Source: Alistipes sp. ZOR0009 (GTDB lineage Bacteria; Bacteroidota; Bacteroidia; Bacteroidales; ZOR0009). From it: a DNA stretch of 64,000 nucleotides. Both the position numbers and the translations under genes were made by a program. A model generated the notes under the pieces. The model was not told the origin of the DNA, ran no database searches, and saw nothing but the letters and a program-made list of their open reading frames with translations. Positions 46,762 to 64,000 of this stretch are shown one piece after another (position 1 is the first letter of the stretch; every line of letters begins with the position of its first letter). The stretch is taken from positions 62,001 through 126,000 of the forward strand of contig NZ_JTLD01000119.1 in NCBI RefSeq assembly GCF_000798815.1, read 5' to 3'.

Positions 46762-47976
46762 TCATCTACGGATTACGGAGTGGTGATTGAACGAATATCC
46801 CAAAGAAATGAACGTACAGTTTGCTTTACGCGAAGGAACCATCTGAACGCCAAAACTGGCGTTGAATCCTTTATAAACATATGTTTTTGCCCCAATATTT
46901 GCGCACATGGTACTATAAAAACCTTCCGTCCTACTAAATATGTAGCCCACGTCCGCGAATCCAGAAATATACCCCATTGAAATCTCCAGCTTCCCAAGAA
47001 ATCCAGGAGAGAATCTTTTCGATATCTTAGATGGCTCATACTCATAGCTAACCTGAGCACTTTCCTTATCGATTAGCTGCTCTACAACAATACCTGTACT
47101 TTCATCATAAATCAAAGAAAGTCCGACCCCTGCTCTAACATAAGGCAAACCAACAAACATCAAAAAAGCATTTACATTTGTAGTCTTAAACGAATGGTCG
47201 ATAATTCCCGTTGACTTAGTATTTTCTGGCTGCCCCCGTATTTGACGAGATCCGTACATTACATTTAGGTCGTACTCAAAATGTGGTACCATCCTATAGT
47301 TCTGTTTTGTCCCTTTGGAGAAGCTAGTCTTATCTTCACTGAAATTGTAAAGGAGATCACCATACCCTCCCAACGTATTTAAGCCTGTATTCGGAAGCCG
47401 ATATCCACCATTGGAGTTGTGAGTAAACGTTACTCCAAACCGCGCTTGTATCCTTTTTCCCAAAGCATATTTCAGATAAAGATCTGCAGCAGCATGATAG
47501 TTATTTCGTCCTCCAAGTAGCCTATTCGCTGGATTATCATTCTTGTCATATGATTTCCATCGAAAGGCACCCCCGAGTTTTATCTCAAAACCTAGCGACA
47601 ATGCTTTGCTTGGCTCAAGGATAGTCAGCCCATAAGATAAGTAAATGGAGTAGGGATTCCCTAAAAAATCGGATTGATGAAAGTAGGGCTTATTGAAGCC
47701 TATACCAAAATAGGGATTGCCAAAAAGAGAGTCGACAAGAGCCGCCCGATTAGGCCTGAAGTACAGATTGACAGAAAATGATTCTGCATTTGGAAAGTGC
47801 AAATTCATATTGCGCGCATATTCAGGCCTAAAGACATAGCTGTAGCTACCTCCAGCAGAAATTGCAAGTGGCACAACCTGCCTAACGGATATGCTATCGG
47901 AAGGTTGAGCAGACAAGTAGCTCTGAGTGGTCGTACAAATCAAGAGCGCTAAAAATGCAGCTATTCTAACTCTCAT
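46762..47976 (-). CDS. PagL-like acyloxyacyl hydrolase (lipid A 3-O-deacylase)
   Basis: A 404-residue exported protein (signal to about residue 23, SYLSAQ) forming an outer membrane barrel. The catalytic signature of PagL is clear: FTHNSNGGYRLPNTGLN, with His186 and Ser188. PagL removes the 3-linked acyl chain of lipid A. The chain is much longer than the 150-residue Pseudomonas enzyme; the extra N- and C-terminal strands are usual in Bacteroidota. It is monocistronic, upstream of pepO in the same direction with a 120-base gap. Confidence 0.82.
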   Translation of the reverse strand: MRVRIAAFLALLICTTTQSYLSAQPSDSISVRQVVPLAISAGGSYSYVFRPEYARNMNLHFPNAESFSVNLYFRPNRAALVDSLFGNPYFGIGFNKPYFHQSDFLGNPYSIYLSYGLTILEPSKALSLGFEIKLGGAFRWKSYDKNDNPANRLLGGRNNYHAAADLYLKYALGKRIQARFGVTFTHNSNGGYRLPNTGLNTLGGYGDLLYNFSEDKTSFSKGTKQNYRMVPHFEYDLNVMYGSRQIRGQPENTKSTGIIDHSFKTTNVNAFLMFVGLPYVRAGVGLSLIYDESTGIVVEQLIDKESAQVSYEYEPSKISKRFSPGFLGKLEISMGYISGFADVGYIFSRTEGFYSTMCANIGAKTYVYKGFNASFGVQMVPSRKANCTFISLGYSFNHHSVIRR

Positions 47977-50787: not shown

Positions 50788-52368
50788 TTAAAACTCATAA
50801 CCAGTTTTATTGCTAGGATAGTCGAGCGAATAGTGAAGTCCTACGCTCTCCCTCATCGCCTTTGCATGCTTTATAATCAGATATCCAACGGCAACAAGGT
50901 TACGAAGTTCGCAGAGACTTTGCGTAAGAATTGATTTTTTGTAAAGTTCCTCGGTCTCTTGATACAGAATTTCCAAACGCTTAAGCGCCCTTTCAAGCCG
51001 AAGGTTAGAGCGAACAATTCCTACATAGTTGCTCATTATCTGCTGCATCTCCTTATAGTTTTGGGTAATCAGCACCATCTCTTCGGTGTGCGTTGTTCCT
51101 CCATGATCCCAATCAGGAATATTCTCCTGAAAAGAAATGGTTTCAAGCTTAGCAAGCGCATCCTGATACGCTTTTTCCGCATAAACAACGGCCTCTATTA
51201 GCGAGTTCGACGCCAAACGGTTACCTCCATGAAGTCCCGTACAAGAGCACTCTCCAACAGCATACAGCTTATGAATTGTGGTCTCTCCCTTCAAATCGAC
51301 CTTAATACCTCCACAAAGGTAGTGAGCAGCAGGAACCACCGGGATATAGTCCTTTGTAATATCAATCCCAATGGATAGGCATTTTTTGTAGATATTCGGG
51401 AAGTGATATCGTGTTTTGTCGGCATCCTTATGGGTAACATCGAGGTAAACAAAATCATCACCTCGCTGCTTCATTTCATTGTCGATAGCTCTGGCTACAA
51501 TATCGCGGGGAGCAAGGTTGCTGCGCTTGTCGTACTTAGGCATAAACTCTCGCCCATCGATGGTACGAAGAATCGCTCCGTAGCCACGCATTGCCTCTGT
51601 AATAAGATACGATGGCCGCTCGTTGGGGTTATACAGCGATGTAGGATGAAACTGTATAAACTCCATATTCTCGATAATTCCTTTGGCCCTATGCACCATT
51701 GCAATACCATCACCGGTAGCTATCGATGGGTTCGTCGTTGTGTGATAGGCATTACCTGTACCTCCAGTAGCCAGCACCGTAACCTTCGACCTAAACGTAT
51801 GGACTGTTTGGGTCTTTAGGTCAAGTACGTAAGCACCATAGCACTCTATGTCGTTCATATTACGCTTTACCAACCTTCCTAAGTGATGCTGCGTAATAAT
51901 CTCAACCGCAAAGTGGTGCTCCAGCACCGTGATATTCTTATGTGCTCTCGCCGCCGCCGATAGCCTACGCTGCACCTCAAAGCCTGTATTATCCTTGTGA
52001 TGAAGAATTCGGTGTTCCGAATGGCCCCCTTCCCGGTTAAGGTCGTACTTTCCCGATTCCTCTTTGTCAAACTTGACACCCCAGTTTATGAGCTGTCTTA
52101 TTTGGTTGGGTGCTTCACGAACCACCATCTCTACCACCTCTCGGTTGCAAAGTCCTGCTCCAGCTTCTAGCGTATCCGAGATATGCTTTTCAAAAGTATC
52201 AGGATCGTACATTACCGAAGCAATTCCCCCCTGTGCATAGCTGGTGTTGGTCTCCTCAATATTTGTTTTGCTGATAATTATCACTCGTCCATGCTCGGCT
52301 GCCTTTAGGGCAAAACTCAAACCGCCGATACCAGCTCCAACCACCAGAAAATCCGCTTCTCTATTCAT
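50788..52368 (-). CDS. nadB: L-aspartate oxidase
   Basis: A 526-residue FAD enzyme that oxidises aspartate to iminoaspartate, the first step of de novo NAD synthesis. The FAD-binding GAGIGGLS lies near residue 11. Family motifs include TSYAQGGIA, GGHSEHRILH with its catalytic-region Arg, QFHPTSLY and the ARDIVARAID segment. In anaerobes fumarate serves as the electron acceptor. The ATG at 52368 is preferred to one 14 codons upstream; TATATTTG lies 22 bases before it. nadA and nadC are not in the window. The neighbouring pnuC also serves NAD supply. Confidence 0.95.
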   Translation of the reverse strand: MNREADFLVVGAGIGGLSFALKAAEHGRVIIISKTNIEETNTSYAQGGIASVMYDPDTFEKHISDTLEAGAGLCNREVVEMVVREAPNQIRQLINWGVKFDKEESGKYDLNREGGHSEHRILHHKDNTGFEVQRRLSAAARAHKNITVLEHHFAVEIITQHHLGRLVKRNMNDIECYGAYVLDLKTQTVHTFRSKVTVLATGGTGNAYHTTTNPSIATGDGIAMVHRAKGIIENMEFIQFHPTSLYNPNERPSYLITEAMRGYGAILRTIDGREFMPKYDKRSNLAPRDIVARAIDNEMKQRGDDFVYLDVTHKDADKTRYHFPNIYKKCLSIGIDITKDYIPVVPAAHYLCGGIKVDLKGETTIHKLYAVGECSCTGLHGGNRLASNSLIEAVVYAEKAYQDALAKLETISFQENIPDWDHGGTTHTEEMVLITQNYKEMQQIMSNYVGIVRSNLRLERALKRLEILYQETEELYKKSILTQSLCELRNLVAVGYLIIKHAKAMRESVGLHYSLDYPSNKTGYEF

Positions 52369-52389
52369 GTCTTCGCGAAAATGGTTGAG

Positions 52390-52397
52390 CAAATATA
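52390..52397 (-). promoter_or_regulatory. Promoter -7 box TATATTTG for nadB
   Basis: An exact TAnnTTTG match on the minus strand, 22 bases upstream of the nadB ATG. It supports that start and rules out the ATG at 52410. Confidence 0.65.
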
Positions 52398-52482
52398 GAA
52401 ATAACCACAAAACCAGTGAAACAACTTTCCGTGTCTTACAGCAGGGAATTTGATGCTTTGGGCAAAATAACGCTACCTTTTT

Positions 52483-53145
52483 TCACGATTTTGAGACAGA
52501 CTGAAAGCGAAATTCATTAAACCATGATCGATAACCATAAATACATAAACCAAACAAAATAAGATATTCAAAAGACATCAAAAGAATGCCTTGCATCAGA
52601 TATACAACTACACAGATTATGTCAACAAACATCCATAAATACCAATTCTCAAGTTTTCTAGTAGCCATCAGACAATTAGCAATCATACTTAAGATTACTG
52701 AGGAGGCATTTACAAAAGGAAATGATGCGGGTTCTGGAAATATGCTTGGAATTAGCAGGTGAATTCGGCTCATGAAGACCCCTAAACTCCCAGCACCAAC
52801 AATTGCTATTCCTGCAACCACAAAGTAATCGCTCCTTCTCAGCCGCTCAACAGGCTTGGTCGCTTCAGCGCAGCCACGACGCCAGTAGTACCATCCATAA
52901 ATGGCTATACAAAAAAAGTAAATCTGCAACAGCATGTCCGAGTAGAGCCTTACCTGATAAAACACAAGAAAAAATGCGATGGTATTTATAAGTGTCACAG
53001 GCCATGCGAGCACTTTTGAACGAGCAGCAAACCAAACAGAAAGCAAGCCAAAAATTGTCCCAACAAACTCAACAAGGCTCATATTGTAACCCATTAAGCT
53101 AAATAGAACGCAGTCAATATCCAATAAATATCCCATAATCACCAT
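52483..53145 (-). CDS. pnuC: PnuC-type nicotinamide riboside transporter
   Basis: A 220-residue inner membrane protein with about seven helices and the PnuC pattern: LSVWFAARSKVLAWPVTLINTIAF, then YSDMLLQIYFFCIAIYGWYYW, and near the end a second aromatic cluster (ENWYLWMFVDIICVVVYL). It takes up nicotinamide riboside, or thiamine in some relatives, by facilitated diffusion. The adjacent nadB, in the same direction 114 bases downstream, supports the NAD-precursor role. Alternative starts at Met4, Met18 and Met22 are possible. Confidence 0.88.
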   Translation of the reverse strand: MVIMGYLLDIDCVLFSLMGYNMSLVEFVGTIFGLLSVWFAARSKVLAWPVTLINTIAFFLVFYQVRLYSDMLLQIYFFCIAIYGWYYWRRGCAEATKPVERLRRSDYFVVAGIAIVGAGSLGVFMSRIHLLIPSIFPEPASFPFVNASSVILSMIANCLMATRKLENWYLWMFVDIICVVVYLMQGILLMSFEYLILFGLCIYGYRSWFNEFRFQSVSKS

Positions 53146-53258
53146 TAAACATAGACGGCAATATACTTTTTTTAAGATATCTGAAAAAGAGTTTTGTTAA
53201 GGAGAATGATTGATTCCAAAATTCGCCAAATGCAAAAATTTAATATCTCAAAAGATTT

Positions 53259-53266
53259 TATCTTTG
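53259..53266 (+). promoter_or_regulatory. Promoter -7 box TATCTTTG for the glycan/acyl operon
   Basis: An exact TAnnTTTG match 79 bases before the first gene start at 53345. It lies inside an extended open frame that begins at 53210, which argues that the longer frame is not translated. Confidence 0.55.
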
Positions 53267-53344
53267 TTCGCTTGGCAATTGCTGCCTATTCTGAAGTTTT
53301 GCATTTGCAAGCAATTCAGACAAAAAACATTTAAGAGAGATAGC

Positions 53345-54079
53345 ATGAAAGTCACTGATGCTTTTTGGGAAGAACGAAATTTAGGAGTAAAAACTGTTGA
53401 GTTGCTGATCAACAGAGATGACTCCTGTTTAGAGATCGAAGAAACCCTTGCTGCATGCGAGAACTACCAATATTGCGTTGCAAAAGTAGAGGTTCCTAAT
53501 GTTGAGGCCCAAAGACTATTATCTAAACACGGTTTCTACTACGCAGAATCAAGCTTAAACATGTATTTAGATGTACGCAACTTCAGACTCTCTCCCTTAG
53601 AATCTCGAATAAACAAGCAGGTTACCTATAAGCCTATAAGTAGCTCTGAAATACCTCGGTTCGAAGAACGAATTCGAGAAGGAATTTTTGATACTGACAG
53701 AATTTTTCTAGACAGCGAATTTTCTGCAGAAAAAGCTGCCCAAAGATATTTAAACTGGATAAATGATGAGCGAACTAGGGGAACCGAACTCTTTGAAATT
53801 CTATACAAAGACACTCCTATAGGCTTTTTTACGCAAAAGCAGGTTGCGGAAAACACATACTATCCCTTTCTAGCCGGTTTATACAAGGAGTCCAATGCAA
53901 TTATAGGTGTTGGATTTTCGGTACTTGCCAAGCCAATTGAAAATGCTATATCAAAAGGAGGAAAGTTCATATCTACGTATGTATCCTCAAACAACCTACC
54001 AATTGTTAGATTGCATATCCAGCTCGGTTTCGTGCCGAACCACTTATACAGCGTTTTTGTAAAACATAATAGACAATAA
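53345..54079 (+). CDS. GNAT family acyltransferase (WecD-like)
   Basis: A 244-residue protein whose C-terminal half is a GNAT fold (about 130-235, with FEILYKDTPIGFFTQKQ, LAGLYKESNAIIGVGFSVLAKPIENA and STYVSSNNLPIVRLHIQLGF, the last being the usual acyl-CoA/Asn motif). It resembles WecD, which acetylates TDP-4-amino-4,6-dideoxygalactose. The two partners of WecD, a WecE-type transaminase and a WecF-type transferase, are encoded at the other end of this locus. The next gene is an acyl carrier protein only five bases away, so an acyl-ACP may be its donor. The start at 53345 follows the promoter box. Confidence 0.75.
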   Translation: MKVTDAFWEERNLGVKTVELLINRDDSCLEIEETLAACENYQYCVAKVEVPNVEAQRLLSKHGFYYAESSLNMYLDVRNFRLSPLESRINKQVTYKPISSSEIPRFEERIREGIFDTDRIFLDSEFSAEKAAQRYLNWINDERTRGTELFEILYKDTPIGFFTQKQVAENTYYPFLAGLYKESNAIIGVGFSVLAKPIENAISKGGKFISTYVSSNNLPIVRLHIQLGFVPNHLYSVFVKHNRQ

Positions 54080-54084
54080 ATAGA

Positions 54085-54324
54085 ATGACTGCAATAGAAA
54101 AGTACAACCAAGCCTTCATTGCTAATTTTAATATTACCGATGAGCAACTAAAAGGACTTACCTACCAATCTGTAGAACTTTGGGACTCTGTTGGGCATAT
54201 GAACCTCGTTGCTTCACTGGAAGATGCTTTTGACATTATGATGGAGACTGACGATATCATCGATTTATCTTCGTACGAAAAAGGGATGGAGATACTAAAC
54301 CAAAAGTATGCAGTTGAGTTCTAA
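54085..54324 (+). CDS. Acyl carrier protein
   Basis: A 79-residue acidic helical protein with the phosphopantetheine attachment Ser35 in LWDSVGHMNLVASLE. The usual DSL is DSV here, as in many dedicated, pathway-specific carriers. It is not the housekeeping AcpP, which lies with fatty-acid genes. It probably carries the acyl chain handled by the SDR, ligase, LuxE and LuxC encoded downstream. Its end overlaps the SDR start by 17 bases. Confidence 0.88.
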   Translation: MTAIEKYNQAFIANFNITDEQLKGLTYQSVELWDSVGHMNLVASLEDAFDIMMETDDIIDLSSYEKGMEILNQKYAVEF

Positions 54325-55063
54325 TGAAGGGAGAAAGCCAACAGCGCTAATAACAGGTTGTAATAGAGGCATTGGTAAAGCAATCCTTGAATGCTATGCA
54401 TCGCATGGAATCAATGTAATAGCATGCATCAGAACTATAACTCCAGATTTTGAAAACTTCACAAAAGAGCTTGCGAACAAAAATAGCGTCAGCATAACCA
54501 TCTACCCAATTGACCTTGCCGATCAGTCAAGCATCTCTTCCACTATGAAAGAGATATTTAGTAGCAAGGTTAGAATTGATATCTTGGTAAATAATGCAGG
54601 TGTTGCTTTTGGCAGTTTTTTCGCAATGACTTCTATCGCCAAAATGAAAGAAGTTTTCGAAATAAATTTCTTTGGACAGGTTGCAATTACCCAGTATGTC
54701 TCCAAGTGGATGCAAAAATGGGGTGGTGGCTCAATAATAAACTTAGCCTCAGTTGCAGGAATTGATGGAATGGAAGGATATTCGGCCTATGGTTCCAGCA
54801 AAGCTGCGTTAATCTACCTCACAAAAACGCTGGCTAAAGAGCTGGCGGGATATGGCATTCGAGTGAATGCTATTGCTCCGGGGCTCGTAGAAACTAATAT
54901 GGCCGACCAAATGGAAGTGAAAGCCGCAGATAAAATGATCGCAGGCAGCGCCATGAAGAGGTTGGGTACGCCATCGGAAATCGCAGAGCTAGCTCTATTT
55001 CTGGGTAGCGATAACTCTTCTTTTATTACAGGACAAGTAATCCGCATAGACGGAGGAATGTAA
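54308..55063 (+). CDS. SDR oxidoreductase, 3-oxoacyl-ACP reductase (FabG)-like
   Basis: A 251-residue NAD(P)-dependent reductase. The dinucleotide motif GCNRGIG is at 17-23, NNAG near 95-98, the catalytic Ser near 148, and Tyr161 with Lys165 in YGSSK. PGLVETNMA and the terminal FITGQVIRIDGGM are typical of FabG-like proteins. Next to a dedicated ACP it would reduce a 3-keto or alpha-hydroxy-keto group on the carrier-bound chain. The start overlaps the ACP gene by 17 bases, indicating coupling. Confidence 0.87.
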   Translation: MQLSSNEGRKPTALITGCNRGIGKAILECYASHGINVIACIRTITPDFENFTKELANKNSVSITIYPIDLADQSSISSTMKEIFSSKVRIDILVNNAGVAFGSFFAMTSIAKMKEVFEINFFGQVAITQYVSKWMQKWGGGSIINLASVAGIDGMEGYSAYGSSKAALIYLTKTLAKELAGYGIRVNAIAPGLVETNMADQMEVKAADKMIAGSAMKRLGTPSEIAELALFLGSDNSSFITGQVIRIDGGM

Positions 55064-55076
55064 ACTAGAACATGCC

Positions 55077-55907
55077 ATGATGAATACTGAAGAACTGAAG
55101 TTGTTATCCTACAACTTGCGAAAAAAATCGCTAGAAGTGGCTTATGGAGCAGGTAGAAATGGGGCTCACTTAGGAGGAGGCCTTTCGACAATAGAAATAT
55201 TTGCGGTCCTCTTTGGATCTATTATGAAATACGACAGTAAAAATCCTTTATCAGAAGAAAGAGATCGCTTAGTTATTAGCAAAGGGCATTGCGTTTTAGC
55301 ATACTACTCTGCTCTAAATTTGTTTGGATTCCTTTCTGATGAAGAATTGGCACTTTTCGAAAACAATGGCGCTTTTTTACATGGACATGCAACTCGCTCT
55401 TTGGAACGAGGTATTGAATTCTCAGGTGGCAGCTTAGGCATGGGACTCCCATTTGCTGTTGGAGTAGCTCTTGCTCTTAAAAGAAAAGGCTCTCCAAACA
55501 AAGTCTATTGCCTAGTTGGCGATGGCGAATGCGATGAAGGTTCCATATGGGAGGCCTTAATGTCGGCTTCTCATTTTGGCCTCAACAATTTAGTTGTGAT
55601 CGTAGACAAAAACGGGCTTCAGTACGATGGTAAAACAAGCGACGTAATGAGCGCTGACTCCTTGAGCGCTAAATTTCAAAGTTTTGGCTTTGAAGTTTCT
55701 GATGTAGATGGCCATTCTACCAAAAAATTGGTGAACGCTTTTTGTTCTTTTTCAAATACAACCCAACCTAAAGCTGTAATCGCAAATACGGTAAAAGGGA
55801 AGGGAGTTTCCTTTATGGAAAACGTAAAAGAATGGCACCATTCCGTATTATCCGAAGCCCAATACACAGCTGCACTCGAAGAAATAAAAAACGAATATGC
55901 CAATTAG
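55077..55907 (+). CDS. Transketolase-like TPP enzyme, N-terminal subunit
   Basis: A 276-residue subunit carrying the thiamine-diphosphate/Mg site: GDGECDEGSIWEA with Gly148-Asp149-Gly150-Glu151 and, about 30 residues on, DKNGLQYDG. Histidines of the transketolase family appear in GAHLGGGLS, SKGHC and LHGH. The C-terminal half of transketolase is encoded by the next gene with an 11-base overlap. Such split enzymes inside polysaccharide loci are believed to transfer two-carbon ketol units to special acceptors; they are not pentose-pathway enzymes. The acceptor here is unknown; an aldehyde made by LuxC is a candidate. Confidence 0.87.
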   Translation: MMNTEELKLLSYNLRKKSLEVAYGAGRNGAHLGGGLSTIEIFAVLFGSIMKYDSKNPLSEERDRLVISKGHCVLAYYSALNLFGFLSDEELALFENNGAFLHGHATRSLERGIEFSGGSLGMGLPFAVGVALALKRKGSPNKVYCLVGDGECDEGSIWEALMSASHFGLNNLVVIVDKNGLQYDGKTSDVMSADSLSAKFQSFGFEVSDVDGHSTKKLVNAFCSFSNTTQPKAVIANTVKGKGVSFMENVKEWHHSVLSEAQYTAALEEIKNEYAN

Positions 55908-56862
55908 TATAAACTCTCTAAAGGCGCGCACCTTCTCTAAGTTAGGACAGCGTGGATCAATCTTCGGAATGGCTATTTTTGATATTGTCGAAGAGACTCC
56001 TAATTTGGCTGTTTTAACAGCAGATCTTGCATCTTTATCTGGCTTGGATAGATTTGTAGCTCAGCATCCTGATAAATTCTATAACATCGGCATTGCAGAA
56101 CAAAACATGCTTGGTGTCGCTGCGGGATTATGTGCCGAAGGCTACAAACCAGTTTTGACAACCTATGCTACGTTCCTCTCGCTTCGAAGCTGCGAGCAGG
56201 TACGCCATTATATGGGATACATGAACCTAAATATGGTGCTGGTTGGCTCTGGCGCTGGTTTTGCAATGGGCTTTTCGGGAAATACGCACTACTCCATCGA
56301 AGATTTAGCGGTAATGAGGGCTATTCCTAACATTGTTGTGCTATCCCCTTCCGATTCGACGTTGGCTGTAAAAGCCTTTGAAGCAGCAATAAAAATAGAT
56401 AAACCCGTTTACATTCGCCTTACAGGTGGACTAAACTGCCCAATGCTCTACAAGGAAGACTTTCCGTATGAAATAGGGAAAGCCATTAAAATTAGAGATG
56501 GAGCAGACATTCAAATTATTGCTACAGGAATAATGGTTAATCGGGCATTACAGGCTGCTGCAATGCTTGAAGAAAAAGGCATTTCTGCAGAAGTTATCGA
56601 CATGCATACAATAAAACCTCTCGATACAAGCGCAATAGCACTTAACAAGAAACTGATTGTGACAATCGAAGAGCACAATATAATCGGAGGTTTAGGTGGT
56701 GCCGTAGCAGAACACTTGACCAGCAAAGGTGCTGGTGTAAAACTCCTTAGGCTAGGAATTCAAGATCAGTTTCTTAAATCGGGCGATGCAGAGTACCTGC
56801 TTGAGCAGTGTGGGCTCACCTCAAATTTAATCGCAGAGCGGATCTTAGAGACGTTGAAATAG
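55897..56862 (+). CDS. Transketolase-like TPP enzyme, C-terminal subunit
   Basis: A 321-residue subunit with the pyrimidine-binding domain (catalytic Glu68 in GIAEQNMLG, which activates TPP) and the C-terminal transketolase domain (about 190-310, IIATGIMVNRALQAA and VTIEEHNIIGGLGGAVAE). It resembles the DXS/transketolase C-terminal half. The overlap with the N-subunit gene enforces equal synthesis. Two bases separate its stop from the ligase start. Confidence 0.87.
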   Translation: MPISINSLKARTFSKLGQRGSIFGMAIFDIVEETPNLAVLTADLASLSGLDRFVAQHPDKFYNIGIAEQNMLGVAAGLCAEGYKPVLTTYATFLSLRSCEQVRHYMGYMNLNMVLVGSGAGFAMGFSGNTHYSIEDLAVMRAIPNIVVLSPSDSTLAVKAFEAAIKIDKPVYIRLTGGLNCPMLYKEDFPYEIGKAIKIRDGADIQIIATGIMVNRALQAAAMLEEKGISAEVIDMHTIKPLDTSAIALNKKLIVTIEEHNIIGGLGGAVAEHLTSKGAGVKLLRLGIQDQFLKSGDAEYLLEQCGLTSNLIAERILETLK

Positions 56863-56864
56863 TT

Positions 56865-58271
56865 ATGGATAGACTAACTAACATTTTTAGCAGATATCGC
56901 AGCAATACGTTGGCTATTGATGAGAACGGGCAAACTGCGAATTATGGAGATATCTGCGAGTTTTCTGAACGGATTAAATCCCTAGATCCCCAAAAGAAGT
57001 TGGTCTTTTGCCTTTCGGATAATACCTTAGGTTCGCTTGTTGGCTATCTATCCTTTTTATCGGCTGGCTGGGTGCCACTTATGCTCGATAAAAACATTGA
57101 TCGCAAGTTGCTTGATGACTTAATCTCGCAATATTCACCTAATTATATATGGACAGCAAAGAATTGCATCGACACCTTAACAGCAACCTCTTTAAACCAA
57201 GAAATATTTTCCTACCAACTTTATAGAACTGAAAGTTCGAAATGTATTTCCTTGAATAAGCAGCTCGCGCTGCTACTCACAACATCAGGAAGCACAGGCA
57301 GCCCCAAGTTGGTACGCATATCCTACAGTAATATTTTGGAAAATGCGGCATCAATAGCCAAATATCTCGATATAAATTCACAGGAACGGCCCATCACAAC
57401 CCTTCCGATGTACTACTCTTATGGACTCTCTGTTATTCATAGTCACATACTTTGCGGTGCAACCATTCTGCTGACATCGCGAAGCATCATGGAAAAAGAG
57501 TTTTGGAGTATGCTAAAGGAACAGCAGGCTTCCAGCATTGCTGGTGTTCCATACACCTTCGAAATGCTTCATCGCTTACGTTTTGAGAGAATGAACCTAC
57601 CTCATCTTAAAACCATAACGCAAGCAGGAGGAAAGCTTAATCCCAAGCTCGTGGAATACTTTGCCAACTCATGTAACATTAGCGGTAAGCGTTTTTTTGT
57701 GATGTACGGCCAAACAGAAGCAACTGCCCGTATGAGCTACCTGCCTTCTGAACTCGTAAGCCTAAAACCATCAAGCATCGGAATCGCGATTCCTGGTGGA
57801 GATTTCCATCTTACCGATGAAAATGGAAATGAAATAACCTTACCAAATATTTCAGGGGAACTTCTTTATAAAGGAGCAAACGTCTCTATGGGGTATGCCG
57901 AATCTATCTTGGACCTCGAAAAAGGAGATGAAAACAAAGGGCTTCTTTACACTGGAGATATTGCTCACCGTGACGAAGATGGCCTATATTATATTGTTGG
58001 ACGTAAAAAGCGGTTTATCAAAATATTTGGGAATAGGGTAAGCCTCGACGCAGCAGAGCAACTTCTGAAGGAAATTATAGGTGAGGTTGCATGTGTTGGA
58101 GTTGATGACAAGCTTACTGTTTTTATTACAGACCCAAGCAAAAGCGAGGAAGTAAAACGCTTTATATCGACTAAAACAGGAATCCACGTATCTGCTTTTG
58201 ACATACAGGTAATAAAAGAGATCCCAAAAAGTTCTTCAGGAAAAGTACTCTACTCTCAACTCCACTTTTAG
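56865..58271 (+). CDS. AMP-dependent acyl-CoA/acyl-ACP ligase
   Basis: A 468-residue member of the ANL adenylation family. The P-loop TTSGSTGSPK is at about residues 139-148, the YGQTEATARMSYL motif near 285, TGDIAHRDEDG near 367 and the catalytic C-terminal Lys in PKSSSGKVLY. It activates a carboxylate as acyl-AMP and passes it to CoA or, given the neighbouring carrier, to ACP. The start at 56865 lies two bases after the transketolase stop; a longer frame reaching back to 56808 would overlap that gene. Confidence 0.87.
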   Translation: MDRLTNIFSRYRSNTLAIDENGQTANYGDICEFSERIKSLDPQKKLVFCLSDNTLGSLVGYLSFLSAGWVPLMLDKNIDRKLLDDLISQYSPNYIWTAKNCIDTLTATSLNQEIFSYQLYRTESSKCISLNKQLALLLTTSGSTGSPKLVRISYSNILENAASIAKYLDINSQERPITTLPMYYSYGLSVIHSHILCGATILLTSRSIMEKEFWSMLKEQQASSIAGVPYTFEMLHRLRFERMNLPHLKTITQAGGKLNPKLVEYFANSCNISGKRFFVMYGQTEATARMSYLPSELVSLKPSSIGIAIPGGDFHLTDENGNEITLPNISGELLYKGANVSMGYAESILDLEKGDENKGLLYTGDIAHRDEDGLYYIVGRKKRFIKIFGNRVSLDAAEQLLKEIIGEVACVGVDDKLTVFITDPSKSEEVKRFISTKTGIHVSAFDIQVIKEIPKSSSGKVLYSQLHF

Positions 58272-58274
58272 CAA

Positions 58275-59357
58275 ATGGTTGATATCGAAAAAATACTTGA
58301 TATAGCTCCTTATTCATTAAACCATGCGGAAAAGGATTCCCTTATGAACGAGGTACAACAGGAGCTTACTCAAATGCACTATCAGAAGTGTTCTGCTTAC
58401 AAAAAAATGCTTGATGCGCATGGTCTTTGCATAGCACATCTGCCACACTACCACAAGATCCCATTTTTACCAGTACGACTCTTCAAAGAATTTGAATTAA
58501 GAAGCGTTCCTCAGGAAGATGTCGTGAAAACAATGACGTCATCAGGAACTTCAGGGCAAGCCGTCTCTCGAATTTATCTTGATAGGGAAACTTCTAGCCT
58601 TCAAACAAAAGCGTTGGTAAAAATAGTATCATCGTTCATTGGCAGCCAACGCATTCCCATGCTAATACTCGACAGTTCAGAAGTGGTGAAAAACAGAGCT
58701 ATGTTCTCAGCAAGAGGTGCTGGAATATTAGGTTTTTCCATGTTCGGGTCTAAGCGCTGCTATGCCCTTAACGAAAACATGGAGTTGGATGTAGATGGGG
58801 TTCAAAAGTTCCTCGAAGAGCATAAAGAATCTCCCATCTTCCTGTTTGGTTTTACGTTTATGATCTGGCTCCATTTCTACAACGAGCTGGTAAAAAAAGG
58901 CACTAAGTTAGACCTTAGCAAGGGCATCCTAATACATGGCGGAGGGTGGAAAAAGCTTGTTGGCGAATCCGTAACTCCCGAAGAATTCAAAAAAAGGCTT
59001 TTTGATGTTTGTGGCATACAAAAGGTTTACGATTACTACGGAATGGTCGAGCAAACAGGAACTATCTATATGGAATGCGAGCAAGGGCACCTACATTGCT
59101 CTATTTTTTCTGACATCATCATACGACGTACTGAAGATTTCTCTGTCGCCAATATTGGAGAAAAAGGGCTAATTCAGGTTGTTTCAATGCTCCCTAAAAG
59201 CTATCCTGGCCATAGCCTCCTAACGGAAGACGAAGGTGTAATACTTGGCGAGGATGACTGCCCCTGCGGAAGAAAGGGAAAATATTTTAAGATTTTTGGA
59301 CGATTGAAGAATGCTGAAGTGAGAGGCTGCAGCGATACATACAGCAAAAAGAGTTAG
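58275..59357 (+). CDS. luxE: LuxE-family acyl-protein synthetase
   Basis: A 360-residue ligase of the LuxE family. The adenylate-binding signature SSGTSGQ lies near residues 88-95, followed by YDYYGMVEQTGTIYMECEQG and a Cys-rich end CPCGRKGKYFKIFGR. In luminous bacteria LuxE activates a fatty acid and loads it on LuxC, which reduces it to an aldehyde. The next gene here is LuxC, so the same two-step reduction is expected. There are no luciferase genes (luxA, luxB), so the aldehyde has another purpose. Three-base gaps on both sides. Confidence 0.87.
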   Translation: MVDIEKILDIAPYSLNHAEKDSLMNEVQQELTQMHYQKCSAYKKMLDAHGLCIAHLPHYHKIPFLPVRLFKEFELRSVPQEDVVKTMTSSGTSGQAVSRIYLDRETSSLQTKALVKIVSSFIGSQRIPMLILDSSEVVKNRAMFSARGAGILGFSMFGSKRCYALNENMELDVDGVQKFLEEHKESPIFLFGFTFMIWLHFYNELVKKGTKLDLSKGILIHGGGWKKLVGESVTPEEFKKRLFDVCGIQKVYDYYGMVEQTGTIYMECEQGHLHCSIFSDIIIRRTEDFSVANIGEKGLIQVVSMLPKSYPGHSLLTEDEGVILGEDDCPCGRKGKYFKIFGRLKNAEVRGCSDTYSKKS

Positions 59358-59360
59358 CCA

Positions 59361-60545
59361 ATGGATATCCTTTTTAGCAAATATTCCGAAGTTACCCATC
59401 TGAAAGAGGTTAAACCTGATGCTATCTTTTCTCATGAGGTAATAGCTTATTTAAATAGCCTTTCTTCCATCTTGATGAAGGATAGGTCGGCTCGCCTCTA
59501 CCCTGATGTGGCTACCTTTGCCTTTTTCTGTAGAAAAGGGAACATTGCAGCCTTAGCCGAAAGCTACAGCGCTCTTAGCAACCTACTCGGTCGCGGCGTG
59601 GTGTTTCACGTAACGCCATCAAATGTTCCAGTCAACTTTGCCTATTCTTTGGTTGCAGGACTACTTGCCGGAAATGCCAATATCGTCAGAGTACCTTCCA
59701 AAAAATTCGAGCAGGTAGATATTATCGTAAATGCCATTAAGCAGCTTTCCTTACAGGAAGAGTTCAACCAGGTATCCGAACGGATTGCCCTTATACGCTA
59801 CGAAAGAAATGGAAGTGAAACCGATATTTTTTCTGGCATTGCCGACGTTAGGGTGATTTGGGGCGGTGACGAAACGATCAATCAAATAAGAAAATCAGCG
59901 ATTCCTCCTAGGAGTTTCGACATAACTTTTGCCGATAGGTACTCATGTGCAGTTATTGATGCCGAATCCATTGTAAAAGAGGCCAACTTGGACTCCCTTG
60001 CCGAAGGCTTTTACAATGATACCTTTCTGTTCGATCAGAATGCATGCTCGTCACCTCATCTTGTTATCTGGTTAGGCGCTACCGATGCCATAAATAAGGC
60101 ACAAAAGAGGTTCTGGAAAGCCTTTCATGAGTATGTCGACAAACGTTACAAGTTCGAGCCCATTTTGGCCGTAAATAAGCTTACAGCCTTTTATCGCCAA
60201 GCGATAGAAACCGACATATCCATCAACAATGATTCGGATAACACTATCTGGCGGGTAAAGCTGAACAGCCTCCCTTCAAATATCGACTTGTACAGATGTG
60301 CAGGTGGGTACTTCTCCGAATTCAGCACCACAAATCTCGACGAAATTGCTCCAATTATTAGCAGCAAGTACCAAACGTTAGCCTATTTCGGCGTAAATAA
60401 AAGTGTGCTGGAAGGGTTTGTTCTCAAAAACAGAGTCCGAGGAATCGACCGCGTTGTTCCTATCGGAAAAACTACCGATTTTGCCCTTGTTTGGGATGGC
60501 TACGACCTTATCCAGAAGCTAAGCCGAAGGGTATCATTTTTATAA
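59361..60545 (+). CDS. luxC: LuxC-family acyl-CoA/acyl-protein reductase
   Basis: A 394-residue NADPH-dependent reductase of the LuxC family, related to aldehyde dehydrogenases. The acyl-accepting Cys229 is in QNACSSPH. VTPSNVPVNFAYSLVAGLLAGNANIVRVPSK near 90-120 is the cofactor region. It reduces an activated acyl group to a fatty aldehyde. It is the last gene of the eight-gene plus-strand operon and ends at a perfect bidirectional terminator shared with the convergent glycosyltransferase operon. Confidence 0.9.
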   Translation: MDILFSKYSEVTHLKEVKPDAIFSHEVIAYLNSLSSILMKDRSARLYPDVATFAFFCRKGNIAALAESYSALSNLLGRGVVFHVTPSNVPVNFAYSLVAGLLAGNANIVRVPSKKFEQVDIIVNAIKQLSLQEEFNQVSERIALIRYERNGSETDIFSGIADVRVIWGGDETINQIRKSAIPPRSFDITFADRYSCAVIDAESIVKEANLDSLAEGFYNDTFLFDQNACSSPHLVIWLGATDAINKAQKRFWKAFHEYVDKRYKFEPILAVNKLTAFYRQAIETDISINNDSDNTIWRVKLNSLPSNIDLYRCAGGYFSEFSTTNLDEIAPIISSKYQTLAYFGVNKSVLEGFVLKNRVRGIDRVVPIGKTTDFALVWDGYDLIQKLSRRVSFL

Positions 60546-60550
60546 AAACC

Positions 60551-60586
60551 AAAAGATATTTGGGTTAATCCCCAAATATCTTTTTG
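60551..60586. terminator. Bidirectional terminator between converging operons
   Basis: AAAAGATATTTGGG at 60551-60564 pairs exactly with 60571-60584 across a six-base loop. It overlaps the last codons of the WecF-like gene on the minus strand. Confidence 0.88.
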
Positions 60587-61602
60587 CTCTGCAATATCAG
60601 CATCTCTTTACTGAAAAACTCTTTTATCTTAGCAATATTACGCTCCTTTTCATCAGGCGTTAGCAGCTCTATCGATGTAATTCCATCTCTTCCAATCGGA
60701 AATAGCTTAACCCCAACTCGCTCCAAAAGCTCTGTTGTTGTCACATCTTCCCTTATATAAACCGACTTCCCAAATCCCAATAGGGTTACAATATTCCCTA
60801 CAGCCTGCTGCCTTTTATGATTAAAGATGGCCACATCTATTTTCGAGAGCAGCTTCACATACTCATCAAGGTTCATGAAGGTGGTTAAAGGAATAAACGA
60901 TTCTCCTAGCTGCTCCTGCCCATACTGCTTCACTAGCTCTGCATGCTTAGCATTTCCGTAGGATAGCGGACACACAACCTTATATCGAGGAAGATTTAGC
61001 GTCTTTATCCAGTCAATGGCTTCGAGATGGTTATTCGATGGATCGGCAGAATTTCCTACCTGAATCCAAATCTCGTCCTTTACTGGTGCTGATATGTCTA
61101 TATTCTTAAACAGATTGCTCGGATACAAAAAGCTTTCAAGGTGCTCCGCTTGGGTATTGAACTCATCCTTTACTATCTGATAATCTCCCCTATTGGAAAC
61201 AATGCATCCCAGATTTCTCACAACCTTGCGGTAGGCAATATTTCTAAAGTAGTAATACTTCAAGCTTCCTTTCTCTACAATATTGTAGTACAAATCGGCT
61301 CCCCACAGGTACCAATAGCACTTGCGCGCAAGCCAAGGAAAGAAGAAAAGAAACCTTATAACGCTCCATTTAGAAAGGCTATGTAAAACAACCTTATCAG
61401 CCTTTAGCATATAGATCAGAAGCTCTATGTAAAAGAGTACTCCAAACCTGTAGTAGCGAGAGAACACCACGTTGGGTGCCGTCTTGCTGTTTTTTCCTTT
61501 TTTTAGAAAAAAGAAGGTATGCCTATCTACCTCAAAGTTGTCGTTGACAAAATCAATGTAATCATTAAAGAACTTCTCCGGAAAAGCAATATGAAGAATC
61601 AT
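60565..61602 (-). CDS. WecF-like TDP-4-acetamido-4,6-dideoxygalactose transferase (GT56)
   Basis: A 345-residue glycosyltransferase of the family that in enterobacteria adds Fuc4NAc to lipid II of enterobacterial common antigen. Family features: LHSLSKWSV and YLWGADLYYN in the N-domain; WIQVGNSADPSNNHLEAI and LTTFMNLDEYVKLLSKIDVAIFNHKRQQAVGNI in the C-domain. It follows the WecE-type transaminase gene by four bases, so the sugar made by that enzyme is probably the one transferred. The acyl group on the sugar may not be acetyl, given the acyl operon opposite. Confidence 0.86.
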   Translation of the reverse strand: MILHIAFPEKFFNDYIDFVNDNFEVDRHTFFFLKKGKNSKTAPNVVFSRYYRFGVLFYIELLIYMLKADKVVLHSLSKWSVIRFLFFFPWLARKCYWYLWGADLYYNIVEKGSLKYYYFRNIAYRKVVRNLGCIVSNRGDYQIVKDEFNTQAEHLESFLYPSNLFKNIDISAPVKDEIWIQVGNSADPSNNHLEAIDWIKTLNLPRYKVVCPLSYGNAKHAELVKQYGQEQLGESFIPLTTFMNLDEYVKLLSKIDVAIFNHKRQQAVGNIVTLLGFGKSVYIREDVTTTELLERVGVKLFPIGRDGITSIELLTPDEKERNIAKIKEFFSKEMLILQSKKIFGD

Positions 61603-61606
61603 CTGT

Positions 61607-62728
61607 TTAGCTTATAAATTCCAAGATATGCTGCGATATCCTATCAACCTCTTCCAATGTCAGCTCAAAGTAGAAGGGCAGCCTAACCAGCGTATCCGAA
61701 AAATTATCGCTGTTTGTCAATACCCTACCGTCGTGCTTATCCTTGTAGTAATCGCTGGCATGTAAGCTTTGGTAATGGAATACCGGCAGTATTTCCTTCT
61801 CCTTTAGATACGATATCAGCGCGTTTCTTTGATCGAGCGATTGGCATATCAGGTAAAACATATGCGCATTATTGGTTGCGTAATCAGGAATCGTCGGTAG
61901 CTGCACTCCTTTCTCTCTTAAGCTGCTCAAGTTACCGTAGTACCGATCCCATATCGACTTCCTCTTTTGCTGAATTGCCTCAATATTCTCAAGCTGCGCA
62001 TATAAAAAGGCTGCTATAATCTCCGATGGCAAAAACGAAGAGCCAATATCAACCCATCCATACTTATTTATCTCACCTCTAAAAAACTCTGCCCTATTGG
62101 TTCCCTTCTCCCATAGAATCTCAGATCGCTTGGCCAACGATGGATCATTTATTGCAAGTAATCCACCTTCTCCCGCAATCACATTCTTTGTCTCATGAAA
62201 AGAGAAGCATCCCAAATGGCCTATACTCCCCAGCGGCTTCCCCTTGTAGTACGAGTCAATTGCCTGCGCAGCATCTTCTATTACAAGCAAATTATATTTC
62301 TGGGCCAATCCCATTATCTTATCCATGTCACACGCAACTCCGGCGTAATGAACCGGAACAATAGCCTTCGTTCTTTCCGTTATAAGGCCTTCGATCAAAT
62401 CCTCATCAATATTTGGCTGATCGCTATGGCTATCTGCAAATATGATTGTTGCTCCTTGTCGAATAAATGCTATTGCTGTTGATACAAAGGTGTAGGAAGG
62501 AATTATCACCTCATCCCCTTGCTTTATATCCGCCAAAATTGCGGCCATTTCCAACGCATCGGTGCACGATGTGGTCAAAAGGCACTTGTGGAAGCCGTAC
62601 TTAGCGGAGAAAAATTCGTGGCATTTTTTTGTGTACATGCCATTCCCCGAAATCTTACCAGAAAGAACAGCTTCGGTTATATATTTTGTTTCGTTGCCCG
62701 TTAAAAATGGCTTATTAAATGGAATCAT
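61607..62728 (-). CDS. WecE-like dTDP-4-amino-4,6-dideoxy sugar transaminase
   Basis: A 373-residue PLP enzyme of the DegT/DnrJ/EryC1 family. The internal aldimine Lys181 is in FHETKNVIAGEGG, and Asp152 in EDAAQAIDS holds the pyridine ring. The opening MIPFNKPFLTGNE and the KISGNGMYTKKC segment match WecE (RffA), which aminates TDP-4-keto-6-deoxyglucose to the 4-amino-galacto sugar. The rmlA and rmlB genes that make its substrate are not in the window. Middle gene of a three-gene minus-strand unit. Confidence 0.9.
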   Translation of the reverse strand: MIPFNKPFLTGNETKYITEAVLSGKISGNGMYTKKCHEFFSAKYGFHKCLLTTSCTDALEMAAILADIKQGDEVIIPSYTFVSTAIAFIRQGATIIFADSHSDQPNIDEDLIEGLITERTKAIVPVHYAGVACDMDKIMGLAQKYNLLVIEDAAQAIDSYYKGKPLGSIGHLGCFSFHETKNVIAGEGGLLAINDPSLAKRSEILWEKGTNRAEFFRGEINKYGWVDIGSSFLPSEIIAAFLYAQLENIEAIQQKRKSIWDRYYGNLSSLREKGVQLPTIPDYATNNAHMFYLICQSLDQRNALISYLKEKEILPVFHYQSLHASDYYKDKHDGRVLTNSDNFSDTLVRLPFYFELTLEEVDRISQHILEFIS

Positions 62729-62774
62729 ATCTTTTCAATTTATCAGATACTACGTCTAACTTCAAAAAGCAGCT

Positions 62775-63608
62775 CTACAAGGGCTGCTTACTAATCCCAT
62801 TACTTGCCCAAGTAATGCGTTCTGCCTTAACCCTATCTCGTATCTCCCTGTTTTTGGTTAAAGTATCGGCAGTTCTATATGGTCGTGGATGGTCAAGGTG
62901 CATGCATATGGCGCTATAACGGATCTGCTTCCCCGCAATCCCATTATTCATCAGGCGTTCGCCAAGCTCCCTATCCAGTCCGCCGTACTGCATATCCTCG
63001 TTGTAGCCATTTACGGCAACAATATCAGCCTTCCATCCGCTTGCATTATGCCCGTTCCAAGTAGCTTTCGTCGGCGTTAGCATGTTCATCAGATACTTGT
63101 AAACACGATTGCGAGACAGCTTAATAAACTTGAACGAAAAGGGCTGCCCATTATCTAGCAACCATTTAATGCTAAATATTCTTTTGCTCGCCACGTCTTC
63201 GTAGGTAACTGCATCCGATACCGGCTTAGCCAGCTTAAAGTATCCGCCACTTAAAAAGTAGCCCGCTCTTGCCTTCTTGGCATGTATCTCAACGTAGTCG
63301 AAATGTGGTATGCAATCTCCATCTGTAAACAGCAGGTAATCGTACTTCGATGCAACAATTGCCTTATTCAGGATCTCACATTTTTTGAACCCATCATCTG
63401 CATGCCAAATATGCTGAATGGACAGCTTACCTCTCTCCTGATACCTCTTAATCAGATCGGTAGTTTCCTGCCTCGAACCGTCATCAGCAATAACAACCTC
63501 AAAGTTTTTGTACGATTGCAATTCGAATCCCCACAACGTCTTCTCCAACCAAGCAGGCTGGTTGTATGTGGTAATAATTACAGATATCCATAATTCTCTT
63601 GAGGCCAT
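62775..63608 (-). CDS. Family 2 glycosyltransferase
   Basis: A 277-residue cytoplasmic GT-A glycosyltransferase. The nucleotide-binding start SVIITTYNQPAWLEKTL, ADDGS near 40-44 and the metal motif DGDC near 96-99 are clear. The C-terminal part has YNEDMQYGGLDRELGERLMNNGI, the domain found in galactosyl/GalNAc-type transferases that recognise the nucleotide sugar. The start at 63608 is preferred because it directly precedes the catalytic fold; a frame reaching to 63680 would add a spurious hydrophobic leader. It is the first gene of the three-gene unit, 46 bases before wecE. Confidence 0.87.
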   Translation of the reverse strand: MASRELWISVIITTYNQPAWLEKTLWGFELQSYKNFEVVIADDGSRQETTDLIKRYQERGKLSIQHIWHADDGFKKCEILNKAIVASKYDYLLFTDGDCIPHFDYVEIHAKKARAGYFLSGGYFKLAKPVSDAVTYEDVASKRIFSIKWLLDNGQPFSFKFIKLSRNRVYKYLMNMLTPTKATWNGHNASGWKADIVAVNGYNEDMQYGGLDRELGERLMNNGIAGKQIRYSAICMHLDHPRPYRTADTLTKNREIRDRVKAERITWASNGISKQPL

Positions 63609-64000
63609 TGTAAAAAGAAACTTTTCGTGAATTGTGTGTAAGACTGATTCAAATAAGATAACAAATATAGAAAAAAGCATTTGGAAAATTACCTATATCC
63701 GCTTTTGCTTCAAACGCATCGCAGGCATCACCAATGCTTCCCTCCGCTCAAAGCTCCTTTGCTGCTTTTTTTAAGGCAGCGCTCCAATAGCGCTACGTAA
63801 GGTTACTTTTTTATTAAATATTCAGCAAGCGAGAATTTTCGAAAAAAGTGCAACCCAAAAATCGAGGTATCTTAAGCAAAGAGATACCGCTGCTCCACAA
63901 ACGGCACAACGGCAGCTCAAAAGCGCCATCTATCACGAGTTCACCGCTACCACCTATAGTACTTTGCCTTTAGCCGCATTTTGATTTTACGAATAAGATT
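63609..64000. other. Right-end spacer, no gene recognised
   Basis: About 390 bases upstream of the glycosyltransferase gene. It must contain that gene's promoter, but no clean TAnnTTTG box is seen on the minus strand. AGCGCT appears twice around CCAAT near 63778-63795, a small hairpin. No open frame is convincing. A gene may begin or end just outside. Confidence 0.4.

Follow-up and report, generated by a model that had tools for sequence, protein, structure and literature searches.

An eight-gene operon in a glycan locus

The window analysed here, a stretch of 64,000 nucleotides from Alistipes sp. ZOR0009, carries eight intact open reading frames between positions 53345 and 60545. All lie on the forward strand, in the order GNAT, ACP, SDR, transketolase N half (TKN), transketolase C half (TKC), ANL, LuxE and LuxC. 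Consecutive genes are separated by 5 (GNAT-ACP), 13 (SDR-TKN), 2 (TKC-ANL), 3 (ANL-LuxE) and 3 bases (LuxE-LuxC) or overlap by 17 (ACP-SDR) and 11 (TKN-TKC), in agreement with the preliminary description, which had reported eight one-strand genes with gaps of 2 to 13 bases or overlaps. The residues it had named (ACP Ser35, SDR Tyr161/Lys165, TKC Glu68 and LuxC Cys229) are likewise all correct. An ATG was taken as the start of both the GNAT (53345) and ANL (56865) genes, for which the mechanical reading frames begin with TTG at 53210 and GTG at 56808, respectively. The operon and its convergent neighbours comprise the following features:

53345..54079, + strand: WecD-like GNAT N-acyltransferase (AF2 model with pLDDT 91.5; best solved PDB match by Foldseek, WecD 2fs5)
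54085..54324, + strand: acyl carrier protein with Ser35 in a DSVGHM motif
54308..55063, + strand: FabG-like SDR reductase with Tyr161/Lys165 (Pfam and NCBIfam)
55077..55907, + strand: transketolase N half, ThDP-binding (PF00456), core motifs retained
55897..56862, + strand: transketolase C half with Glu68, and with Gly, Ser and Gly at the His461, Asp469 and Arg520 positions (Pfam and residue alignment)
56865..58271, + strand: ANL (AMP-binding) acyl ligase (PF00501)
58275..59357, + strand: LuxE acyl-protein synthetase family (PF04443)
59361..60545, + strand: LuxC acyl reductase family with Cys229 (PF05893)
60551..60584, - strand: terminator-like 14-pair stem between the convergent units
60565..61602, - strand: WecF-like GT56 glycosyltransferase (PF07429, 94.2 bits against 25; WecF models below their cut-offs, the best at 323 against 457)
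61607..62728, - strand: WecE, dTDP-4-amino-4,6-dideoxygalactose transaminase (NF008687, 562 against 375 bits; TIGR02379, 515 against 434.85)
62775..63680, - strand: GT2 glycosyltransferase (PF00535)

The SDR, transketolase N, transketolase pyr/C, AMP-binding, LuxE and LuxC families all exceed their Pfam cut-offs. By sequence the other two proteins are weak: the GNAT has no Pfam match at 1e-3 and a single WecD match (25.3 bits against a cut-off of 219), and the ACP reaches 14.5 bits in the PP-binding family against 20.8. The GNAT label holds because of the predicted fold together with recurrence across related loci, and the ACP label because of such recurrence. Cys229 of LuxC is invariant (6/6 aligned LuxC proteins), and among solved structures LuxC has a single, distant relative (48.7 bits). 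Pfam scans of the operon gave neither a lipoyl nor an E2-type domain, and they found no iron alcohol dehydrogenase among the proteins of 53345-63680, where the SDR and the transketolase pair are present instead.

The surrounding DNA adds little. Promoter-like and terminator-like sites are no commoner than in shuffled sequence (for the latter, 6 found and 6.8 expected), and no Rfam family matched at the gathering score in 52000-64000. A foreign origin was rejected on composition, as G+C shows no signal (41.6% in the operon, 42.4% in positions 1-53000). LuxE and LuxC gave no match in the two genus mates searched. The source genome contains an rmlB gene, and neither flagellin nor pseudaminic acid genes were recognised among the operon's neighbours read or scanned in the window.

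Recurrence across LuxE loci

The preliminary description had called for a search for conserved synteny. Across 53 close LuxE loci, the neighbours of LuxE are indeed conserved: 52 have ANL and as many have LuxC, 49 have the ACP, and 19 have the transketolase pair. Because the partners recur in this way, the gene set is beyond chance. All eight families occur together in seven of these loci, the window included, the GNAT of one (L144) being a weak 36-bit match. The counts leave out eight LuxE loci with weak E-values of 1e-30 to 1e-59 (L018, L036 to L042), which have no ANL, ACP or transketolase match. Two pairs of neighbouring stretches, each pair from one contig (L112 and L113; L117 and L118), were counted as one locus apiece with their sequences unjoined. 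No transketolase is in view in 34 of the 53 loci, some of which are cut stretches; the SDR and ACP are unseen in two of the 19 transketolase loci (L033, L131), both of which start within the transketolase gene.

WecE scores above its cut-off in all five loci that show both a GNAT and a DegT gene (the window, L112/113, L117/118, L135 and L143) and in 1/16 of the GNAT-less loci with a DegT gene, the sole exception being L132, which bears WecE with no GNAT in view. The earlier proposal that the GNAT is the N-acyltransferase of an amino sugar is thus supported as far as sequence can support it, by the predicted WecD fold, the adjoining WecE and the rmlB gene in the genome. The enzyme could instead take acetyl-CoA, like WecD. 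In Flavobacterium psychrophilum, an ACP and an acyltransferase have been proposed to attach a structurally characterised hydroxyacyl group to an amino sugar (PMC6519341).

The SDRs that adjoin the transketolase do not form a single clade (5 changes on the tree), and the idea of one SDR clade bound to the transketolase was rejected on that tree. The case for a dedicated ketone reductase is weakened because of this.

The LuxE-linked transketolases

The transketolases linked to LuxE form one clade in both trees built (22 rows, 94/98; 23 rows, 100/100), from which, as from the residue comparison, the distant ThDP paralogues L107 and L108 were excluded. The catalytic core is retained: the ThDP motif of the window protein reads GDGECDEG, and Glu411 (E. 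coli numbering) is kept in 23/23 lux-linked rows and His473 in 22/23. Equivalents of E. coli His461, Asp469 and Arg520, however, are absent from all 23 rows; Leu, Phe, Met or Ser occupies position 469 in the clade. Among 23 other transketolase and DXS-type proteins, His461 is kept in 17, Asp469 in 20 and Arg520 in 19. Both window halves find their best PDB match in the two-chain split transketolase of Carboxydothermus hydrogenoformans (6yaj/6yak), which nevertheless keeps all three equivalents.

The lineage is thus altered at two positions, 469 and 520, that protein engineers have changed as well. In E. coli transketolase, activity on propionaldehyde, the unphosphorylated aliphatic aldehyde of those tests, was 5-fold higher with D469T, and D469T/R520Q gave 9.6-fold over wild type (PMC6310800). 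Yeast R528, which we equate with E. coli R520, binds the substrate phosphate (PMC5573996). By sequence, the lux-linked clade should accept plain unphosphorylated aldehydes. The published engineered changes at position 469 are to Thr or Glu, not to Leu, Phe, Met or Ser, and loss of polarity alone has been argued to be a minor factor (PMC5573996). Xylulose 5-phosphate, one of the donors first suggested for this enzyme, becomes less likely because the phosphate-site residues are lost.

A separate, known route for the transketolase pair, which the preliminary description had considered, did not emerge. Among 250 genomes of the Selenomonas class there are 10 lux-type copies in 9 genomes, all of them LuxE-positive, and the 12 other genomes with matches are absent from the LuxE-positive list. 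These data bear on an improbable reading in which the pair builds part of a sugar, for example a branched or extended one, and the adjacent acyl genes serve a function of their own. ThDP enzymes do make two-carbon branched sugars; the pair, however, accompanies the Lux core beside sugar genes that vary from locus to locus (WecE in some, other DegT families elsewhere, NeuB-like genes as judged by eye), and lux-type copies were unseen outside LuxE-positive genomes in the class searched. It is scarcely credible that the transketolase leaves the LuxC aldehyde untouched and instead supplies a small unit, such as a glycolyl group for the ACP. Carrier proteins do receive C2 units from ThDP enzymes in some antibiotic pathways, but the operon's lack of a lipoyl or E2-type domain argues against such supply, which would also leave LuxC with no partner reaction.

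A proposed route and its known relatives

With a probability of roughly one half, the product of the operon is a short acyl group with several hydroxyls, which is N-linked to the 4-amino group of dTDP-4-amino-4,6-dideoxygalactose (Fuc4N) for a surface glycan, the substrates and order of steps being inferred. LuxE would use ATP to activate a small free acid and hand it to Cys229 of LuxC, which would reduce it to the aldehyde; by analogy with the tetronate genes of Vibrio cholerae, the favoured starter is a hydroxyacid with two carboxyl groups, for example malate. The split transketolase, with its core kept and its phosphate-site and Asp469 residues lost, would then add a C2 ketol to the unphosphorylated aldehyde, and the SDR would reduce the ketone. 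The ANL ligase would load the resulting acid onto the ACP, and the GNAT, WecD-like in its predicted fold, would N-acylate the sugar that WecE (assigned by curated cut-offs) may make from the RmlB product. Finally, the adjoining WecF-like enzyme could add the acylated Fuc4N to the surface glycan. Since loading by ANL needs a remaining free carboxylate, the scheme assumes a dicarboxylic starter or another source. Most of its elements (one operon, a glycan setting, LuxE/LuxC as aldehyde source, ketol addition and SDR reduction) had been put forward in the preliminary description and are supported to the extent that sequence allows.

The order of steps proposed there fares less well. In it, ANL loads the ACP first, LuxE and LuxC reduce from the ACP, and extension and transfer follow. 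This sequence of events is unlikely, though the near-constant presence of ACP and ANL with LuxE/LuxC agrees with it, as does the FabG-like character of the window SDR, whose family acts on ACP thioesters. Five loci (L010, L112, L117, L129 and L133, of which L112/L117 and L129/L133 are look-alikes) hold two LuxE/LuxC sets with a single ANL and a single ACP, which is why loading as one late step fits. Reduction by LuxC would, moreover, free the aldehyde from the ACP, leaving the GNAT with no transferable chain unless it were reloaded. One locus, L110, has one LuxE/LuxC set and three ANL matches, and speaks for early loading and against a single late one.

The tetronate genes VC0248-VC0252 of V. 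cholerae O1 encode an ACP, a ligase, an alcohol dehydrogenase, a LuxE-LuxC fusion and an acyltransferase; the dehydrogenase is of the iron type, and no transketolase is known among them. On these identities, that module and the window both place an ACP, ANL, LuxE and LuxC in a glycan locus for an amino sugar and differ in the sugar, in the transketolase and in the iron alcohol dehydrogenase; the V. cholerae pathway is likewise putative. Its small hydroxyacid N-acylates the 4-amino-4,6-dideoxyhexose perosamine (PMC3441752). With the WecD-WecE-WecF enzymes of enterobacterial common antigen (ECA) the window shares a WecE above cut-off, a WecD-like predicted fold and a GT56 enzyme, whereas its GNAT and WecF-like proteins fall below equivalog cut-offs and the acyl donor proposed for it is an unusual one, linked to ACP. 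The O-polysaccharide R-group genes of F. psychrophilum similarly include a dedicated ACP and acyltransferase proposed to put a hydroxylated acyl on an amino sugar; there a ketosynthase-built chain is proposed, the acceptor is Qui2NAc4N, and the available text mentions no transketolase.

The Aeromonas flagellin island group II (98 strains) shares the ACP, 3-oxoacyl-ACP reductase (an SDR in the window), AMP-dependent ligase, LuxE and LuxC (PMC7874193), and matching ACP-reductase-ligase-LuxE-LuxC genes lie in enterobacterial flagellin islands, in 71 to 80 strains depending on the gene (PMC4875605). Both are linked to flagellin, the Aeromonas island also to pseudaminic acid, and the word "transketolase" is absent from the main texts of these papers. 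A fatty aldehyde or liposugar product has been suggested for these related islands (PMC4875605, PMC7874193), a reading that the family names LuxC, LuxE and FabG would favour; for the window it is very improbable. Measured by the equivalog models for luminescence, its LuxE (69.6 bits, cut-off 550) and LuxC (40.3 bits, cut-off 750) both fall far short, and the transketolase would have no evident role in fatty aldehyde synthesis, so that fatty aldehyde or luminescence was set aside. The Aeromonas flagellin glycan also carries an unexplained 102 Da unit, too small for a fatty acyl (PMC7874193). Its nominal mass is that of C4H6O3, dihydroxybutyryl (102.03), our own candidate assignment; no paper came up in a literature search for flagellin with dihydroxybutyryl or tetronic groups.

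The closest list is that of the Dickeya zeae EC1 flagellar-region cluster: acyl-CoA reductase, LuxE, FadD-like, TktA, TktB, two FabG, ACP and maltose O-acetyltransferase (PMC4522980, PMC6206727). Compared by list alone, it equals the window's set except in acyltransferase type and its second FabG. The cluster lies among flagellar genes and is called fatty acid biosynthesis, with no product proposed in the available text of the two papers. The earlier statement that no pathway with this exact set is described must therefore be narrowed: a near-identical list is in print (PMC4522980), its product is not given there. In the literature searched, the set with a transketolase was met in these two Dickeya papers, and no explanation in print was found.

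Related gene sets are thus already published, for V. cholerae O1, for Aeromonas and enterobacterial flagellin islands and for Dickeya. What the proposed route would add is a testable pathway for a list printed as fatty acid biosynthesis or liposugar, and a transketolase clade that by its sequence would accept unphosphorylated aldehydes, a trait chemists had to engineer. Starting from malate, the route would yield an acyl residue of formula C6H10O5 (162.05); being isobaric with a hexose, it could have gone unnoticed in mass spectrometry. It is possible, though doubtful, that in at least three phyla (the Bacteroidota window, a Lachnospiraceae genome and Rhizobium plasmids) a natural transketolase lineage extends unphosphorylated LuxE/LuxC aldehydes to yield 3-deoxyaldonate-like acyls on amino sugars. 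The scheme predicts specific acyl groups on the glycans of widely differing bacteria, and offers a candidate for the 102 Da unit that the flagellin glycan of Aeromonas carries.

The operon and its surroundings

The operon lies in a draft genome of 4.4 Mb, of which the window represents C119:62001-126000.

Features of the operon
53345-60545, operon of GNAT (an N-acyltransferase), ACP, SDR, transketolase N half, transketolase C half, ANL (an AMP-binding acyl ligase), LuxE and LuxC, neighbouring genes being -17 to 13 bases apart
60551-60584, terminator-like stem of 14 pairs, beyond LuxC

The preliminary description held the catalytic residues to be intact (ACP Ser35, SDR Tyr161/Lys165, transketolase Glu68, LuxC Cys229), and a check of the sequence finds all of them in place. 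On the opposite strand, 19 bases from LuxC, stand a GT56 WecF-like enzyme, then WecE, then a GT2 enzyme. WecE exceeds the cut-offs of two curated models (562 bits against 375; 515 bits against 434.85). The genome encodes one dTDP-glucose dehydratase over cut-off, on the separate contig C17, which provides a source for the WecE substrate. A second split transketolase C half, on C110 of the same genome, has an ordinary active site.

NigD-type domains, identified in a domain scan, point to Bacteroidota as the source group. A match to PagL (lipid A 3-O-deacylase) at 46762-47976 scores 31.9 bits against a cut-off of 23. Past the window's right end, beyond the glycan genes, a glycerophosphotransferase-like gene (PF04464) is followed by CysN, CysD, APS kinase and CysQ genes, these four named by eye (L002:948-7422; L-numbers denote DNA stretches fetched around LuxE or transketolase matches). 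These genes perhaps reflect a sulfated or glycerophosphate-bearing glycan.

Recurrence of the gene set in LuxE loci

LuxE profile searches were positive in 14 of 393 genomes of the order at 1e-30 and, at 1e-60, in 4 of 395 genomes of the phylum, 15 of 391 from the class of a Lachnospiraceae genome and 26 of 250 from the class of a Selenomonas genome, counts to which the genome of the window and both centre genomes contribute. Two genus mates were negative for the LuxE profile. The surroundings of the LuxE matches, further loci and the window gave 61 loci, from which 8 weak ones were set aside. Among the remaining 53, several of which end early at contig ends or fetch limits so that counts are lower bounds, at least 52 carry LuxC, 52 ANL, 49 ACP, 31 SDR, 21 a DegT enzyme, 19 the transketolase pair and 9 a GNAT. 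All eight families occur in seven loci (the window, L112, L117, L119, L141, L143 and L144), although the L144 GNAT is weak at 36 bits and L112 closely resembles L117. L119 and L141 share one strand and the order GNAT, SDR, transketolase N half, C half, ACP, ANL, LuxE, LuxC.

Transketolase pairs keep close to the core: 14 of 20 lie at most 55 bases from an ACP, ANL, LuxE or LuxC gene, five at distances up to about 1.7 kb and the last at 6.7 kb, and the SDR adjoins the N half in 16. The set also occurs on Rhizobium plasmids, where the 10 records matching LuxE likewise rank as the top ten of that genus for the transketolase; in three that were examined, the two genes lie some 4-6 kb apart, accompanied by ACP or ACP-sized, AMP-binding and SDR genes. 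Plasmid stretches of Ponticoccus and Deinococcus carry the core genes with no transketolase annotated.

Several LuxE loci (L017, L034, L035, L130, L132, L138, L139, L142 and L143) also contain FabH-like ketosynthases, identified by eye, which perhaps offer an alternative route to the chain. More distant LuxE genes, lacking ANL, ACP or transketolase matches, are found in L018 and L036 to L042, several adjoining a long protein that matches both LuxE and LuxC profiles; these belong to another system. LuxE matches with one internal stop codon occur in five Selenomonas-class genomes (L093, L094, L096, L097, L098).

A transketolase clade with an altered substrate site

Alignment to TktA of E. coli MG1655, whose numbering is used here, covered 23 C halves from LuxE loci, three of them near-copies from Rhizobium. 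Glu411 is kept in all 23, while His461, Asp469 and Arg520 are each kept in none; position 469 is occupied by Leu (14 rows), Ser (4), Phe (3) or Met (2), and at position 520 7 rows have Lys and 16 a residue that is not basic. Among 23 other ThDP proteins, DXS-like ones included, His461 is present in 17, Asp469 in 20 and Arg520 in 19. The lux-linked rows form a single clade (support 94/98 with 22 rows, 100/100 with 23), whose nearest neighbours are PAR_L052 together with transketolases from plasmids of Phaeobacter, Mesorhizobium and Ensifer.

Split transketolases of alphaproteobacterial plasmids that neighbour the lux-linked clade and have Tyr in place of Asp469
L185:7111-8969
L186:6114-7969
L187:7001-7879

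These three keep His461 and Arg520. Succinate-semialdehyde dehydrogenase and aminotransferase genes lie near those of Phaeobacter and Mesorhizobium (L185, L186); L187 lacks annotation. Loss of Asp469 alone therefore reaches wider than the link to LuxE.

The linkage also holds from the transketolase side. A transketolase profile at 1e-88 found 22 places in 21 of the 250 Selenomonas-class genomes, with misses possible as only part of each genome's candidates was scored in the first pass. The lux-type site, lacking the three residues, occurs at 10 of the 22; these fall in nine genomes, every one of them positive for LuxE. None of the remaining twelve genomes is in the LuxE-positive list, and 11 of their 12 proteins keep all three residues; the twelfth (L178) keeps Asp469 and the Arg, with Tyr in place of His461.

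We take yeast R528 to be the equivalent of E. coli R520, and His461 presumably acts at the substrate site. According to a yeast study, R528 binds the substrate phosphate, and R528 changes alone brought minor gains, D477E being the best variant (PMC5573996). Read against these mutants, the sequence argues for, without proving, an unphosphorylated acceptor aldehyde, probably one without an alpha-hydroxyl.

Two lux-type pairs, one strongly diverged, share a single locus at L128:2475-7877. The halves at L010:7109-8915 have Tyr at the His100 position, as do L113 and L118, and Leu at the His473 position, features perhaps indicative of another donor.

Proposed pathway, known relatives and acceptor sugar

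Sequence evidence supports the gene set with its intact active sites, the change at the transketolase substrate site, the WecD-like fold of the GNAT, the identity of WecE and the cross-phylum linkage; substrates and step order are inferred. We presume the individual identities of V. cholerae VC0248-VC0252, and the malate-like chemistry proposed for them. As these tetronate genes of serotype O1 (PMC3441752) suggest, LuxE and LuxC would convert a small acid to an aldehyde. Where a transketolase is present, the chain would be lengthened by a C2 unit; elsewhere an SDR or other reductase would make the hydroxyacid directly. A late ACP loading step is favoured by five loci that pair two LuxE/LuxC sets with one ANL and one ACP, though L110, with three ANL matches, runs against this.

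Like the window, the Aeromonas AH-3 island contains ACP, reductase, ligase, LuxE and LuxC, and the flagellin glycan of this strain bears an unassigned unit of nominal 102 Da (PMC7874193). Its nominal mass matches dihydroxybutyryl (C4H6O3, computed 102.03), a candidate assignment of our own; no single-gene deletion in the papers examined ties the unit to island genes. The flagellar region of Dickeya zeae EC1 holds acyl-CoA reductase, LuxE, FadD, TktA, TktB, two FabG, ACP and maltose O-acetyltransferase, genes whose role in flagellar biogenesis the genome paper's authors judge unlikely (PMC4522980). An enterobacterial survey interprets the core as genes for fatty acid synthesis and possibly a liposugar (PMC4875605). 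Literature searches that paired transketolase with flagellin, O-antigen, LuxE or LuxC gave no product proposal for the set in the papers examined, which does not prove that none exists. In our reading the set is a hydroxyacyl module of the LuxE/LuxC type, extended by a transketolase.

The GNAT is too diverged for a Pfam match. Its predicted structure (pLDDT 91.5, from a seven-row alignment) ranks WecD 2fs5 first in Foldseek (E 2.6e-14, 14% identity), ahead of other GNATs at 1e-12 and weaker, which suggests a WecD-like fold. GNATs of this family exceed 100 bits in 8 loci. A DegT gene is in view in five of them, and all five enzymes surpass both WecE cut-offs (the window, L135, L143, and L113 and L118, which neighbour L112 and L117). 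DegT without such a GNAT occurs in 16 loci, of which only L132 encodes a true WecE; in the others, where the L035 gene is incomplete, the enzymes are DesI-, PseC- or LegC-like below cut-off or without a match at the threshold used. L132 apart, GNAT and WecE thus co-occur, which links the acyl group in GNAT loci to dTDP-Fuc4N (dTDP-4-amino-4,6-dideoxygalactose). Since NeuB-like genes, named by eye, appear in other LuxE loci, further amino sugars seem to be served by this acyl machinery as well.
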